Part shown: in pieces, positions 22,468-28,554 of the stretch
Layout of the letters: every line of letters begins with the position of its first letter
How positions within the stretch are numbered: the first letter of the stretch is position 1
NCBI RefSeq assembly: GCF_021233415.1
Contig: NZ_CP089466.1
Location: forward strand, 1,116,001 to 1,180,000
DNA from: Halobacterium litoreum
Lineage (GTDB): Archaea > Halobacteriota > Halobacteria > Halobacteriales > Halobacteriaceae
DNA length: 64,000 nucleotides
Reading direction: 5' to 3'
Made by a program: the position numbers and the translations under genes
Notes under the pieces: generated by a model
Told to the model about the DNA's origin: nothing
What the model saw: the letters and a program-made list of their open reading frames with translations, nothing else
Database searches by the model: none

Positions 22468-22695
22468 CTAGCGGACGTACAGCGTCTGCCCGACGAGTAG
22501 CGGGAGGTGAACGTCGTCGTCGGGCGTGACCGCGAGGTAGGGGCGCGCGACCGGCCCGAACACGTCGACGACGCGCCCGACGCCGTCGAGGTTCTCGTCG
22601 ACGACGGCCGCGCCGATGTCGGGGTGGGCTTCGCCGTCGCAGCGCACGACCGCGACGTTCCCCTGCGTGCGCACCACGTCGCCGGCTCGCTCCAT
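22468..22695 (-). CDS. gar1: H/ACA RNP protein Gar1
   Basis: A 75-residue protein with the Gar1 beta-barrel plan: VRTQGNVAVVRCD, then AAVVDENLDGVGRVVDVFGP and PYLAVTP. Gar1 joins Cbf5, Nop10 and L7Ae to guide pseudouridylation. Its ATG shares the final A of the srp19 stop (TGATG), indicating coupling with srp19, an arrangement known in many archaea. Confidence 0.9.
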   Translation of the reverse strand: MERAGDVVRTQGNVAVVRCDGEAHPDIGAAVVDENLDGVGRVVDVFGPVARPYLAVTPDDDVHLPLLVGQTLYVR

Positions 22696-22976
22696 CAGTC
22701 TCGGAGCGCCGTCACGTAGGCGGCGACGGCCTGCAGGAGGTCGGACTTCCCGGCGTCGTCGGCGTCTTTGACGAGGACGCGCCCGGAGTCTTCCCAGTGC
22801 TGTCGGGGGTAGGCGACGTCGCGTTCGACGACGGAGTCGTAGCCGACCTGCTGGACGGCGGTCGCTATCTCGTCGACGGTGGGGCGCTCGACGGCGAGGT
22901 CTTCGGCGACCCGGCGGCCTTCGCGGCGGGAGAGCGTCGCGTCGAAGTACGCGGGCCAGAGGACGTTTTCGACCAT
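22695..22976 (-). CDS. srp19: Signal recognition particle 19 kDa protein
   Basis: A 93-residue protein: [18 protein letters not shown] is the conserved SRP19 N-terminus and [20 protein letters not shown] the C-terminal region. It binds 7S RNA helices 6 and 8 and promotes SRP54 assembly. GTAAAC about 27 nt upstream of the ATG is a TATA-like element. Followed by overlapping gar1. Confidence 0.95.
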
Positions 22977-23051
22977 GCGCGGGTCTATCGGTTCGAGCGG
23001 GTAAACGGTATCGGACGCGAAAAGAGAGTGCGAACGGTCGGTTCGAGGGCG

Positions 23052-24179
23052 TTACCGGCGCGCGATGAGCGCGGCGGCGAGGACGGCGACGAGCGCGACG
23101 GGCGCGCCGAAGCCGGGCGTGTCACCGTTGCTCGTCGTGGTGTCGGCGGTCGTCGCTTCGCTGGTCTGGTCGCTGGTCGTCGCGGTCGGTTCGCTCGTGG
23201 TCTGGGTGGTCGTCGTGGTGTTCGCGTCCGCGTAGGCTTCGGGGTGGAACGCCTGCGCGAACGTCGTCATCGGCGTGACGACGCGGGGCGCGGGCTGGCT
23301 GAGGTTGTTGGTGTTGACGACGACGATGTTCCCCTCCTCGTAGGCGGTGGTGTTCCGAATCACCGAGCCCTTCGGAATGTAGGACTTGGACTCGTTGCCC
23401 ATCCGCTCGGGGGAGACGCTGACGACGACGAAGTCGGGGTCTTGGGCGGCGATGAACTCCGCGGTGAGTTGCGGGTAGGGGGCGCTGGCGTCGGCGTCGG
23501 CGGCGATGTTGTGGCCGCCGGCCTTCGCGATTGCCTTCCCGATGAACGTGTTCGGCCCGGCGGTGTAGCCGGCTTCGGTGCCCCAGTAGACGGTCGGTTT
23601 CTCCTCGCCCTCGACGGCGGTTTCGATGGTGTTCACGCGCTCTTCCATGCCGGAGACCACCTGTTCGGCGCCGCTGCACTCGCCGGTGAGTTCGCCGACG
23701 AGTTCGGTCTTCTCCGTCACGGAGTCGACGGAGTCCGCGAGTTCGAAGCGGTAGACGGTGATGCCGGCGCCGCGAATCTTCTGGACGGATTCGTTGTCGA
23801 TGGTGTTCGGCGCGAGCACGAGGTCGGGCTGGAGTTCGATGACTTTCTCGGTGTTGACGGTGGCGGGGTAGCCCGAGAGCGCGACCGGGAGGTCGCCGGC
23901 GCCGTCGAGGTAGCCGGCGAACTGGGAGACGCCGACGACCTTCTCGCTGCCGCCGACTTCCCACATGGTTTGGGCGGCGCTCGGGCTGAGCGTGACGACG
24001 CGTTCGGGTTCCTCGCTGACGGTGACGTCCGTGCCGGTGGCGTCGGTGCCCGTGTACGGGAACTCGCAGTCGAGGGCGTCCGCGGTCTGGGCGCTCGCGG
24101 CGCCGACGGCGGCGCTCGCCGGCGCGATCGCACTCAGAACTAGTAGCACTACACCAAGTATAGTTGCACTTCTGCGCAT
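23052..24179 (-). CDS. btuF: Cobalamin-type ABC transporter substrate-binding protein, PGF-CTERM anchored
   Basis: A 375-residue protein with a Sec signal peptide (residues 1-30), a class III periplasmic-binding domain (RVVTLSPSAAQTMWEVG through ITAEFIAAQDPDFVVV), a Thr/Ser-rich linker of about 35 residues, and a C-terminal GFGAPVALVAVLAAALIARR segment. The linker plus PGF and membrane helix is the PGF-CTERM sorting signal cleaved by archaeosortase A and replaced by lipid. BtuF function is inferred from the family and from the divergent permease and ATPase genes; siderophore binding is the alternative. Confidence 0.9.
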   Translation of the reverse strand: MRRSATILGVVLLVLSAIAPASAAVGAASAQTADALDCEFPYTGTDATGTDVTVSEEPERVVTLSPSAAQTMWEVGGSEKVVGVSQFAGYLDGAGDLPVALSGYPATVNTEKVIELQPDLVLAPNTIDNESVQKIRGAGITVYRFELADSVDSVTEKTELVGELTGECSGAEQVVSGMEERVNTIETAVEGEEKPTVYWGTEAGYTAGPNTFIGKAIAKAGGHNIAADADASAPYPQLTAEFIAAQDPDFVVVSVSPERMGNESKSYIPKGSVIRNTTAYEEGNIVVVNTNNLSQPAPRVVTPMTTFAQAFHPEAYADANTTTTTQTTSEPTATTSDQTSEATTADTTTSNGDTPGFGAPVALVAVLAAALIARR

Positions 24180-24203
24180 ACGACATCGAGGCCACTAACG
24201 CAA

Positions 24204-24213
24204 TAAATATTTA
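24204..24213. promoter_or_regulatory. Perfectly palindromic shared TATA box between btuF and btuC
   Basis: TAAATATTTA reads the same on both strands. Its centre (between 24208 and 24209) is 29.5 nt from the first base of the btuF ATG (24179) and 29.5 nt from the first base of the btuC ATG (24238). One TATA element may therefore serve both directions, and a factor bound there would control both transcripts together. Confidence 0.65.
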
Positions 24214-24237
24214 CCTAAAGCAAATACGGTTGTGGTG

Positions 24238-25341
24238 ATGCGAGCGCACACGAAGGCGGGCGCGTGGAGCGCGGGGACGTTCGCGCTCCTCGTCGCCGTC
24301 ATGCTCGCCAGCGCCACTATCGGGCCGGTGTCCATCTCCTACCCGCGGGTGGCGCTCGCCGCCCTCGAAGCGCTCGCCGTCCCGACCTCCGTCGTGCCGT
24401 TCCTCGGCACGCTCACGCTCCCCGTCGTCGGCACGCTCCCGTGGCCCGCGCTCGCAATCGACTACGCCTCCCCCCTCCAGTTCGCGGTGCCCGGAACCCA
24501 GCAGTACATCGTCGGCCAGCTCCGGATGCCCCGAATCGTCCTCGGCGCCACCGTCGGCGCGGCGCTCGCCGTCTCCGGCGCCGTCATGCAGGGGTTCTTC
24601 CGGAATCCGATGGCCGACCCCTCCATCATCGGCGTCTCCTCGGGCGCCGCCGTCGGCGCCGTCACCGCCATCGCGTTCCCCGCGCTCTTGCCGTTCGGCG
24701 TCCAGACCGCGGCGTTCGGCGGCGCACTCGTGTCCGCATTCGCGGTCTACCTGCTCGCGACGCAGAACGGCCGCACGCCCGTCGCCACGCTGCTGCTCGC
24801 GGGCGTCGCCGTCCAGACGTTCCTCGGCGCCGTCACCTCCTTCGTCGTCGTGAAGTCCGGAAAGAGCATCCGCGAAGCGATGTACTGGCTGATGGGCACC
24901 CTCAACGGGAGCGGCTGGGGCGACGTGGAAGTCGCGCTCCCCGCCGTCGTGCTCGGCAGCGTCGTCCTGCTCGCGTACGCTCGGGACATGAACGTCCTGC
25001 TCGCCGGCGAGGAGGACGCCCACGCGCTCGGCGTCGAAGTCGAACGCACCAAACGCGTGCTGCTCGCCGTCTCCAGCGTCGTCACCGCCGCGGCCGTCTC
25101 CGTCGCCGGCGTCATCGGCTTCGTCGGCCTCGTCGTCCCGCACGCGATGCGCCTCGTCGTCGGCCCCGACCACCGCGTCCTCCTGCCGACGTCCGCGTTC
25201 GCTGGCGGCGCGTTCCTCGTCGTCGCGGACACCATCGCGCGCTCGAACGCCGAGGGCCTCCCCGTCGGCATCGTCACCGCGTTCGTCGGCGCGCCGTTCT
25301 TCCTCTACCTGCTCCGCGACCGGGAGGTGCGTGCGCTGTGA
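24238..25341 (+). CDS. btuC: Cobalamin-type ABC transporter permease
   Basis: A 367-residue FecCD/BtuC permease with nine to ten membrane segments. Typical motifs: [52 protein letters not shown], and [19 protein letters not shown] near the end. ATG 24238 is preferred over two in-frame GTG codons at 24232 and 24235 because it fits the shared TATA box spacing. An unusual extracytoplasmic insertion of about 45 residues follows the first helix. It overlaps btuD by 4 nt. Confidence 0.93.
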
Positions 25342-26534
25342 CCCTCGACGTGCGCGACGTGGACGTGAAACTGGGCGGCGAACAGATTCTCGACGCCGTC
25401 AGCGCGAACGTCGAGGACGGCCGCCTCGTCGGGGTCGTCGGACCGAACGGCGCCGGGAAGTCGACGCTCCTGCGCGCGATGAACGGCGTCATCGACCCCG
25501 AGGCCGGCACCGTCCTCGTGGACGGCGACGCGGTCGACGACCTCCCGTCGAAAGCCACCAGCCGCCGCGTCGCCACCGTCCCGCAGGACACCCACGTCTC
25601 CTTCGAGTTCACCGTCCGGGAGACCGTCGAGATGGGCCGGCATCCCCACGTCCCGCGGTTCGGGAGCGACGACGACCCCGAGGCCGTCGACCGCGCGATG
25701 GAGCGCGCGGAGGTCGCGCGGTTCGCCGACCGCGACGTGACCTCGCTGTCCGGCGGGGAGACCCAGCGCGTGCTGCTCGCTCGCGCGCTCGCACAGGACG
25801 CCCCCGTCCTCCTGCTCGACGAACCGACCGCGAGCCTCGACGTGAACCACCAGATTCGCACGCTCGAACTCGTCCGCGACCTCGCCGCGGACGCCGACCG
25901 CGCCGTCGTCGCCGCAATCCACGACCTCGATTTGGCGGCGCGCTACTGCGACGAACTCGTGTTGGTCGCCGAGGGCCGCGTCCTCGACTCCGGGCCGCCC
26001 GAGTCAGTCCTGTCTCCGGAAGCCGTCCGCGAGGCGTTCGACGCCCGCGTCGCCGTCGGCACCGACCCCGCGACCGGTCGACCGACGGTCACGCCGCTCC
26101 CGGACGCCAACGCGGCCCTCGACGGGCGCGTCCACGTACTCGGCGGCGGCGACGCCGCGACGCCGATTCTGCGCCGTCTCGCCGACGCGGGCGCCGACCT
26201 CTCCGTCGGCCCGGTCGTCGACGGCGACACCGACCACGAGACCGCCCGGCGGTTCGGCGCGGACTGCGTGACGGTGCCGCCGTTCGAGTCGCCGGACGCC
26301 GAAGCGGTCGCTCGCGCCCGTACGCTCGTGGCCGACGCGGACGCCGTCGTCGTCGCGAGCGAGGCCGCCGACCGCGGCGCGAACCCCGAACTCCGGGACG
26401 CCGCCGACGCGACGCTCGTGGTCGGCGACGACCCCGTCGCTACCCGCGTCGCCGCCGAGGACGTGGCCGCCGCGGTCGCCGCCGTCGAAGACGACGACAC
26501 GCGCATCGCGGTCGCCGACGGCGGCGGCGAGTGA
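25338..26534 (+). CDS. btuD: Cobalamin-type ABC ATP-binding protein with a C-terminal extra domain
   Basis: A 398-residue protein starting at GTG 25338, overlapping the btuC stop (GTGA). Residues 1-255 are the ATPase: Walker [10 protein letters not shown], signature [15 protein letters not shown], Walker [13 protein letters not shown], switch His in [13 protein letters not shown]. Residues about 260-398 form a second Rossmann-like domain ([43 protein letters not shown]) absent from bacterial BtuD. Similar tails occur in haloarchaeal BtuD; their job is unknown, perhaps sensing a nucleotide or ligand. Confidence 0.93.
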
Positions 26535-26577
26535 CCCGGCCACGGCGGTTATGTAGGTCGCGGCCTCAGTCCGTGGT

Positions 26578-28554
26578 ATGTATCGCGTCGCGGCAGTCGT
26601 GACGTTACTCGTCGCCTCGCTCGTCGCCGGCCCGGTCGTCGCCGGGGCGTCGAACGCCGGACCACCGGCCGACGCTCGAATTGCCGCGTCCGACGTCGCC
26701 AGCCAGCAGTCCGCGACCATCCAGAAGTCGATCCATCTCTCGCTGACGCCCGGGGAACCGGGCGAAATCGGCGTCGCCGTGACGTACTCGATTCCCGACC
26801 CCGTCACGTCGTTGTCGGTGAACCTCCCCGACGACGCGCGAACCGTCCAGAGCGACGACTTCCAGTCCGGTGACGGCGCGTGGTCGTGGGACGGCGACGG
26901 CGACTCGGCGACGCTCAGGCTGTCGCTCCCCGCGAACAAGACGACGACCGGCTCACGGAGCCACGCCGGCGTCGCCCAGGAGGGCGACTACTCGTTCGTC
27001 GACGCCGGGTCGTGGGCGCTCGTCACCGTGCCGACGCTCCGCACCGAGTGGGGGTGGCGCGGCGACGACGTTGACGTCGACATCGCCGAGGACGTGTCCG
27101 TCGACGGCGAAGGGTCGACCGGCGGCGAAATCGCGTACCTCGGGCCGGTCGAGACGCACACCCGGACCGCGAACGGGCAGACGTTCACGCTCGCCGTGCC
27201 GGAACGCGCGGAGATGGCGGAATCTCCGGCGCGCGTCCTCGACGCGCTGTCGGCCGCCTCGGAGCGCCTCCGAGTCGGGTCCCGCGACTCAGAAGTCTGG
27301 TTCGGCGTCGCGCCGACCGACGTGTCGTGGGGGATTCGCGGCGTCGAGTACGGCGGCACGGACTCGTGGGTGGTCGCCGACGCGCGCCTCGACGACCCCG
27401 GCAACGTCTGGTTCCACGAGTACGTCCACACGCGACAGGACTACACGCCCACCTCGTCGGGCCGGTGGACGGTAGAGGCGTCAGCCGAGTACTACGCCGC
27501 GTATATGTCTCTCCGCGAGGGGTACGTCGAGTTCGACGCGTTCCAGCGGTACCTCTCCTACGGCGAACGCGAGCCCTGGAACGACGCCGTGCTCGCCGAC
27601 CCCGGCTCGTGGCCGGTCGGCGCGAACTACATCAAGGGGAGTCTCGTCTGGGGGTCGATAGACCGCCGGCTCCGCCTCGCGACTGACAGCAGTTTCACGA
27701 TGAACGACGTGTTCTACCAACTGAACCGCCAGCAGGGCCGCGTGTCGAACGACGACCTGCTGCGGGCGGTGGCGAGCGCGTCCTCGACGTCGGTCGGTCA
27801 GTACGCCCAGCGGTACACCGCGACGAGCGACACCCCCGACATGTGGTCGCGGTTCGAACACGCCGACGCGTTCGACACGCGCCCGCCCCGAATGGACTAC
27901 GATGTCGCCGGCTACGAGGTCACGGGCCCGTTCCGGGACGCGACCTTCGAGGAGCCGCCGACGCTGTACGTCGGCGAGACGCTGACCGTCGGCGCCACCG
28001 TCACGAACGACGGCGGCACGACCGGCGAGTACGTCGCCACGCTCTCGCTCGCCGGCGACACGATGACGGAGTCGACGGCGGAACTCGTGCCCGGAGAGAC
28101 GGACGCGATAACGCTCCAACACCAGTTCACCGACCCCGGCACGTACAACGTCACGGTCGGCCGGAACCAGGTTCCGGTGGTCGTACGCGAGCCCGCGACG
28201 CCGACCGTCGAGTCGCTGTCCGCCTCCCCCGACCCGGTGGAGGGAGGTGAGACGGTGACTGTCACCGCGACGCTGTCGAACCCGACCGACGGCCCGGCGA
28301 CCGGCCCGGTCGCGCTCACGCTCGACGGCCGGCAGGTCGCCACGTTCGAGGCGACACTCGACCCCGGCGAGTCCGTCACGCGAACCGTCACGCTGACCGC
28401 GCCCGATACGGGCGTCCTCGACCTCGCTGCGGGCGACCAGTCGGCGCGCGTGAGCGTCGCCGGGTCCGGCGGTAGCGTGCCCGGATTCGGCGTCGCGCCC
28501 GCCGTCGCCGGCGTCGCGCTGGCGGTCGCACTCGCCGCACTCCGGAGGCGGTGA
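26578..28554 (+). CDS. Cell-surface HExxH protein with PGF-CTERM anchor (putative metalloprotease)
   Basis: A 658-residue protein: signal peptide (1-24), an N-terminal beta-rich region, then HEYVH at residues 280-284 with candidate third ligands E300 or E304 in EASAEYYAAY, the pattern of gluzincin zinc peptidases. Residues about 450-560 hold a CARDB-like beta sandwich (GETLTVGATVTNDGGTTGEY) and a second similar domain follows (GGETVTVTATLSNPTDGPAT). It ends GSVPGFGVAPAVAGVAL plus RRR, a PGF-CTERM lipid-anchoring signal. A TATA-like TTATG is 28 nt before the ATG. Substrate unknown. Confidence 0.85.
   Translation: MYRVAAVVTLLVASLVAGPVVAGASNAGPPADARIAASDVASQQSATIQKSIHLSLTPGEPGEIGVAVTYSIPDPVTSLSVNLPDDARTVQSDDFQSGDGAWSWDGDGDSATLRLSLPANKTTTGSRSHAGVAQEGDYSFVDAGSWALVTVPTLRTEWGWRGDDVDVDIAEDVSVDGEGSTGGEIAYLGPVETHTRTANGQTFTLAVPERAEMAESPARVLDALSAASERLRVGSRDSEVWFGVAPTDVSWGIRGVEYGGTDSWVVADARLDDPGNVWFHEYVHTRQDYTPTSSGRWTVEASAEYYAAYMSLREGYVEFDAFQRYLSYGEREPWNDAVLADPGSWPVGANYIKGSLVWGSIDRRLRLATDSSFTMNDVFYQLNRQQGRVSNDDLLRAVASASSTSVGQYAQRYTATSDTPDMWSRFEHADAFDTRPPRMDYDVAGYEVTGPFRDATFEEPPTLYVGETLTVGATVTNDGGTTGEYVATLSLAGDTMTESTAELVPGETDAITLQHQFTDPGTYNVTVGRNQVPVVVREPATPTVESLSASPDPVEGGETVTVTATLSNPTDGPATGPVALTLDGRQVATFEATLDPGESVTRTVTLTAPDTGVLDLAAGDQSARVSVAGSGGSVPGFGVAPAVAGVALAVALAALRRR

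Follow-up and report, generated by a model that had tools for sequence, protein, structure and literature searches.

A predicted bidirectional TATA promoter with a built-in cobalamin operator at the btu locus of Halobacterium litoreum and other haloarchaea

The short spacer between the divergent btuF and btuC genes of Halobacterium litoreum contains a 32-bp double dyad. Judged from its sequence and distribution, the best explanation of this element is a class-wide haloarchaeal operator of the cbi/cob, cobalt transport, B12-independent nrdAB and btuFCD genes, which at btu overlaps a shared TATA box. The complete model, comprising a compact bidirectional promoter with a built-in cobalamin operator, a DUF7839 protein as its binder and corrinoid-dependent repression, is considered reasonably likely. 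The window analyzed here is the whole 64,000-nt stretch (contig NZ_CP089466.1, positions 1,116,001 to 1,180,000), and coordinates without a prefix are counted from its first letter. The relevant features are as follows.

23052-24179, minus strand: btuF, an ORF encoding a PGF-CTERM-anchored substrate-binding protein (TIGR04281 above cut-off, and PF01497, Peripla_BP_2).
24135-24166, plus strand: probable second operator in the 5' coding region of btuF, scoring 17.5 bits against a background that starts at 9.4.
24201-24232, plus strand: 32-bp operator CAATAAATATTTACCTAAAGCAAATACGGTTG, with sharp-edged conservation in 90 loci and a dyad axis at 24216.5.
24204-24213, no strand assigned: central TATA box TAAATATTTA, lying within the operator's left half and predicted to serve both directions through TBP.
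24221-24232, plus strand: right half-dyad CAAATACGGTTG, the non-TATA part of the operator, which fits the half-site CAANYNNRNTTG derived from non-btu sites.
24238-25341, plus strand: btuC, an ORF with an ATG start encoding the cobalamin permease (NF007081, BtuC, above cut-off, and PF01032).
25338-26534, plus strand: btuD-like ABC ATPase gene within the ORF 24264-26534, with ABC ATPase motifs read directly.
C1:1829304-1830071, outside the window: DUF7839 gene of the same genome (PF25211 and MarR_2/HTH_24 above cut-off).

A 58-nt spacer with one A/T-rich block separates the btuF ATG (24179, minus strand) from the btuC ATG (24238), and the btuD-like gene, with a putative GTG start, overlaps the btuC stop codon. 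The original prediction placed the box TAAATATTTA exactly in mid-spacer, and this was confirmed: its centre at 24208.5 is 29.5 nt from either start codon. The exact symmetry depends on the btuC ATG, because in-frame GTG codons at 24232 and 24235 are also possible starts. On either strand, direct reading puts the centre of the decamer's TATTTA 27.5 nt from the start codon of that strand. CGAAA has been proposed as the haloarchaeal BRE, and by eye only a CGCAA on the btuC side of the box comes near it. The decamer occurs once in the window versus 0 expected in shuffles, and at two places in the 2.7-Mb genome; the second place (L004) has another sequence context in which the CAA/TTG dyad is absent. 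The own-genome baselines come from about 0.48 Mb of sampled sequence, in which the gene starts of divergent pairs were called mechanically. Only 3 of the 96 divergent pairs called in this sample have spacers shorter than 60 nt, and a 10-bp A/T palindrome was found in no other divergent spacer of the sample save one of 1.4 kb. Elsewhere in the same genome, a 55-nt divergent spacer (L236:5927-5981) carries a TATA-like ATTTATA exactly at its centre, and may be another bidirectional TATA box shared by two genes.

The locus was then viewed across btuC loci gathered from 59 related genomes and a named genome collection, with start codons read from ORFs and alignments. The divergent btuF/btuC order is seen in nearly all haloarchaeal loci where btuF is readable. 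A distance of 22-28 nt between start codon and box applies to btuF in 89 of 90 distinct loci and to btuC in 83, and in-frame starts are far fewer in the neighboring 7-nt windows. Both start codons are 23-27 nt from the box edges in 83 of the 90 btuF/btuC loci, a count whose statistical weight is overstated since the species are related and the loci not independent. The box centre is at most 1.5 nt off the spacer centre in all 83 two-sided loci and exactly central in 29 of them; exact centring is ordinary for the btu locus. The proposal of a symmetric box acting as a coupled bidirectional, leaderless promoter stands in one respect and falls in another. The symmetry of spacing is kept in other haloarchaeal btu loci at the frequency given above, but the box is an exact palindrome in only 26 of the 90, TAAGTATTTA being as frequent as TAAATATTTA, and the palindromic TATA box was ruled out as a conserved feature. 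Leaderless transcripts make up 72% of the protein-coding ones in Haloferax volcanii, and the btu geometry is therefore that expected of one TATA box serving two leaderless genes. As in archaeal bidirectional TATA promoters, one TATA box lies at promoter distance from both genes. The conserved two-sided spacing supports the prediction of one common bidirectional, leaderless promoter; conservation establishes its geometry, and bidirectional leaderless transcription is what this geometry suggests.

Gap-free alignment of the btu loci delimits a 32-bp element with sharp edges, corresponding to 24201-24232. Its positions 1-13 contain the TATA box, and the remaining 19, on the btuC side, end in CTA-N3-MAA-N-Y-N4-TTK. 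The element follows the pattern CAA-N6-TTK-N3-TA-N3-MAA-N6-TTK, two 12-bp half-dyads 20 bp apart, and 24201-24232 fits this pattern exactly. The suggestion that the two genes are balanced without a dedicated regulator is contradicted by these observations, as conservation runs asymmetrically about 20 bp past the box and the 32-bp operator is common to a set of B12 genes. A putative second operator (24135-24166) lies 66 bp from the first within the signal-peptide coding region of btuF. The same 66-bp offset recurs in 9 distinct Halobacterium loci, and the site may serve as an auxiliary operator or owe its sequence in part to coding constraint. In Salinibaculum (upstream region L049:3001-3142), the btu spacer is 142 nt long and contains several CAA-N6-TTK units in 20-bp phase, at offsets of +40, +60 and +80 from the main site, which look as if the binder forms a longer array.

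The dyad is not confined to btu. With its central TA, it was found at 131 sites in 49 of 59 haloarchaeal genomes, versus 1 site for the reversed control pattern. In the H. litoreum genome a simplified pattern matched at two further places, with 0 control matches. The sites L118:7187-7218 and L118:11234-11265 of this genome flank nrdAB, one preceding nrdA, the gene for a class I ribonucleotide reductase, and the other preceding a 4HBT thioesterase gene that adjoins nrdB; a thioesterase-linked site is also seen in another genome (G054, L171). In relatives, CAA-N6-TTG-N8-CAA-N6-TTG adjoins cbiT, cbiX, cobT, chelatase and nrdA genes. The 146 distinct sites examined comprise 82 of the btu type, many of which entered via btuC itself, and 64 others. 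Within about 330 nt of 56 of these 64 are cobalamin, cobalt-transport, ribonucleotide-reductase-linked or DUF7839 genes: cbiT, cobN/chelatase, cbiX-type, cobT, cbiM, cbtA, cbiF/cbiH-type, nrdA, the nrdB-linked thioesterase and DUF7839. The other 8 matches were not placed at B12 genes; two of them (L126, L190) are immediate neighbors of a cbiH-type gene, and chance may account for some of the others. Most target starts have an operator centre about 20-50 nt upstream; at nrdA the operator precedes a TATA-like sequence instead of covering it.

At cobN/chelatase, 12 divergent pairs have the operator in their common spacer, with starts about 26 and about 52 nt from the operator centre. The cobN sites, such as L182:1547-1578 and L168:13283-13314, often face a divergent cobaltochelatase-type gene and share the divergent design of btu. 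In one lineage (G036, L119:1501-1532) the operator adjoins a hemC-like gene, which suggests that early tetrapyrrole genes may have joined the operator set there.

A matrix trained on the non-btu sites alone yields the half-site CAANYNNRNTTG. Over 483,318 positions of the H. litoreum genome, a sample that deliberately included the nrd region so that the rank of btu is not a blind draw, this matrix placed the two nrd-region sites 1st and 2nd and the btu element 3rd (28.2 bits). The 4th match, inside btuF, is the second site described above. A sequence profile of the btu element finds only the btu site in this genome because the other sites lack the TATA part, and the dyad pattern is needed to detect them. 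A 45-residue cobN query, run on this genome without a positive control, gave no match, a result that does not show loss of the cbi genes. An earlier description of the 32-bp operator was not found in the open-licence papers searched.

Gene neighborhood points to a candidate binder. In Halobacterium, the operator upstream of cbiT lies between cbiT and a divergent gene whose product, a DUF7839 protein of some 270 residues, has a winged HTH at the N terminus and the DUF7839 domain at the C terminus. All 59 of the 59 relatives encode the protein, usually in a single clear copy, and the family is widespread in the phylum, methanogens included. In G029 and most genomes of Halobacterium the gene faces cbiT; it adjoins cbiT in G030, directly follows nrdB in G038, adjoins the ABC ATPase gene (btuD) beside btuC in G037, and is 1-2.5 kb from btuC in G034 and G051. 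In many genomes, that of H. litoreum included, it is unlinked to B12 genes. One genome (G052) has two DUF7839 genes, one beside cbi genes and one elsewhere (L207, L169). The predicted model of the protein (pLDDT 82) gave convincing fold matches in the HTH part; in the same search, the C-terminal domain matched no solved ligand-binding fold. From this linkage, the universal winged-HTH/DUF7839 protein is most likely the protein that binds the operator, and it is probably a B12-dependent repressor, the ligand and the sign of control being conjectured together with the protein.

In the proposed mechanism, one central TATA box, read either way by TBP/TFB, would start leaderless btuF and btuCD transcripts. 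The box would at the same time form the left half of a 32-bp dyad of the general form CAANYNNRNTTG-N3-TA-N3-CAANYNNRNTTG, to which the DUF7839 protein would bind. When corrinoid is plentiful the regulator would occupy the operator and exclude TBP, so that both genes are switched off at once; under B12 shortage it would leave the operator, and the shared TATA box would serve both sides. Corrinoid as the signal, and repression by covering the TATA box, are presumed here. Repression is preferred because the operator centres are located on the core promoter, at the distance from most target starts given above, and because a set that combines B12 uptake and synthesis with a B12-independent ribonucleotide reductase fits switch-on at low B12.

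The sign of control could nevertheless be the opposite, with the regulator activating most of its targets, btu among them. In favor of this, the second cob/cbi regulator in the model of Todor et al. (PMC3794607) is an activator, and the nrdA site is upstream of a TATA-like sequence; against it, the btu element contains the TATA box itself and the operator centres are close to most starts, so activation is judged unlikely. The identity of the binder is somewhat more exposed to doubt. A different regulator might bind a real operator, the DUF7839 neighborhood being coincidental or reflecting another role, as the gene is unlinked in many genomes and a universal protein discriminates little by its presence alone. 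The repeated linkage to cbiT, nrdB and btuD in different lineages, with the operator between the DUF7839 gene and cbiT, argues against a different binder, which is regarded as possible but doubtful.

Two other readings fare worse. A symmetric core promoter in which the symmetry of TBP balances both genes with no regulator has in its favor that the shared TATA geometry is real and that bidirectional TATA use is known in archaea. However, the conserved stretch continues about 20 bp beyond the TATA box in one direction only, the palindrome is not itself conserved, and other B12 genes have the 32-bp dyad but not its TATA part. This recurrence rules out core-promoter conservation alone as the source of the element, and a regulator-free promoter is very improbable. 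It is more improbable still, to the point of being nearly dismissed, that the two genes each have their own TATA element within or close to the spacer: the spacer has a single A/T-rich block, and both starts are at a fixed distance from it in 83 of 90 loci.

Bidirectional archaeal promoters with one shared TATA box were reportedly also described by Warman et al. in 2021. In Pyrococcus furiosus, one TATA box was demonstrated to drive both directions (Grunberger et al. 2019, PMC6640164), and these promoters, like btu, have one near-symmetric box. The Pyrococcus start sites are about 50 bp apart, compared with about 59 nt between the two start codons at btu. The Pyrococcus pairs are mostly sense/antisense by-products, whereas at btu both flanking genes encode parts of a single transporter and the box belongs to an operator. 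The binding site of TrmB is unlike the CAA-N6-TTG double dyad. In Halobacterium salinarum, control of cob/cbi is TrmB-linked, and a second, unidentified activating regulator was inferred from expression dynamics (Todor et al. 2013, PMC3794607). The TrmB-linked control concerns the same cob/cbi genes; the btu-type operator is a CAA-N6-TTG double dyad and also covers btu and nrdAB.

A cobalamin riboswitch was rejected for the btu locus, as no Rfam cobalamin family was among the matches up to E=1 in 22500-27000. Bacterial cobalamin riboswitches control btu, cbi and nrdAB, and so follow the same logic, one gene set uniting uptake and synthesis of B12 with a ribonucleotide reductase that does without it; the haloarchaeal element, in contrast, is a DNA dyad before apparently leaderless genes. 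NrdR acts through paired palindromic NrdR boxes at ribonucleotide reductase promoters. The present operator is also paired and palindromic at such genes, but box sequence and spacing differ, and its gene set, unlike that of NrdR, is centred on cobalamin genes. RbkR, named in PMC8305020 as an archaeal riboflavin regulator with an N-terminal HTH, resembles the DUF7839 candidate as an archaeal HTH protein for a vitamin gene set; RbkR is also an enzyme, while DUF7839 has no known activity.

A broader and distinctly tentative proposal is that the DUF7839/winged-HTH protein might be a direct corrinoid sensor in haloarchaea and methanogens, controlling the complete archaeal B12 economy, from uptake, synthesis and cobalt import to the change-over to a B12-independent ribonucleotide reductase. 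In haloarchaea it would act via a 20-bp-phased double dyad, which at btu would also provide the TATA box for a promoter working in both directions. TATA boxes that serve both directions are already known from archaea. The question of a second cob/cbi regulator, raised for H. salinarum in 2013, is narrowed to a specific operator and a candidate protein and is now testable, and the btu locus suggests how one TATA box could serve two genes, regulated as a unit, by building the box into the operator.
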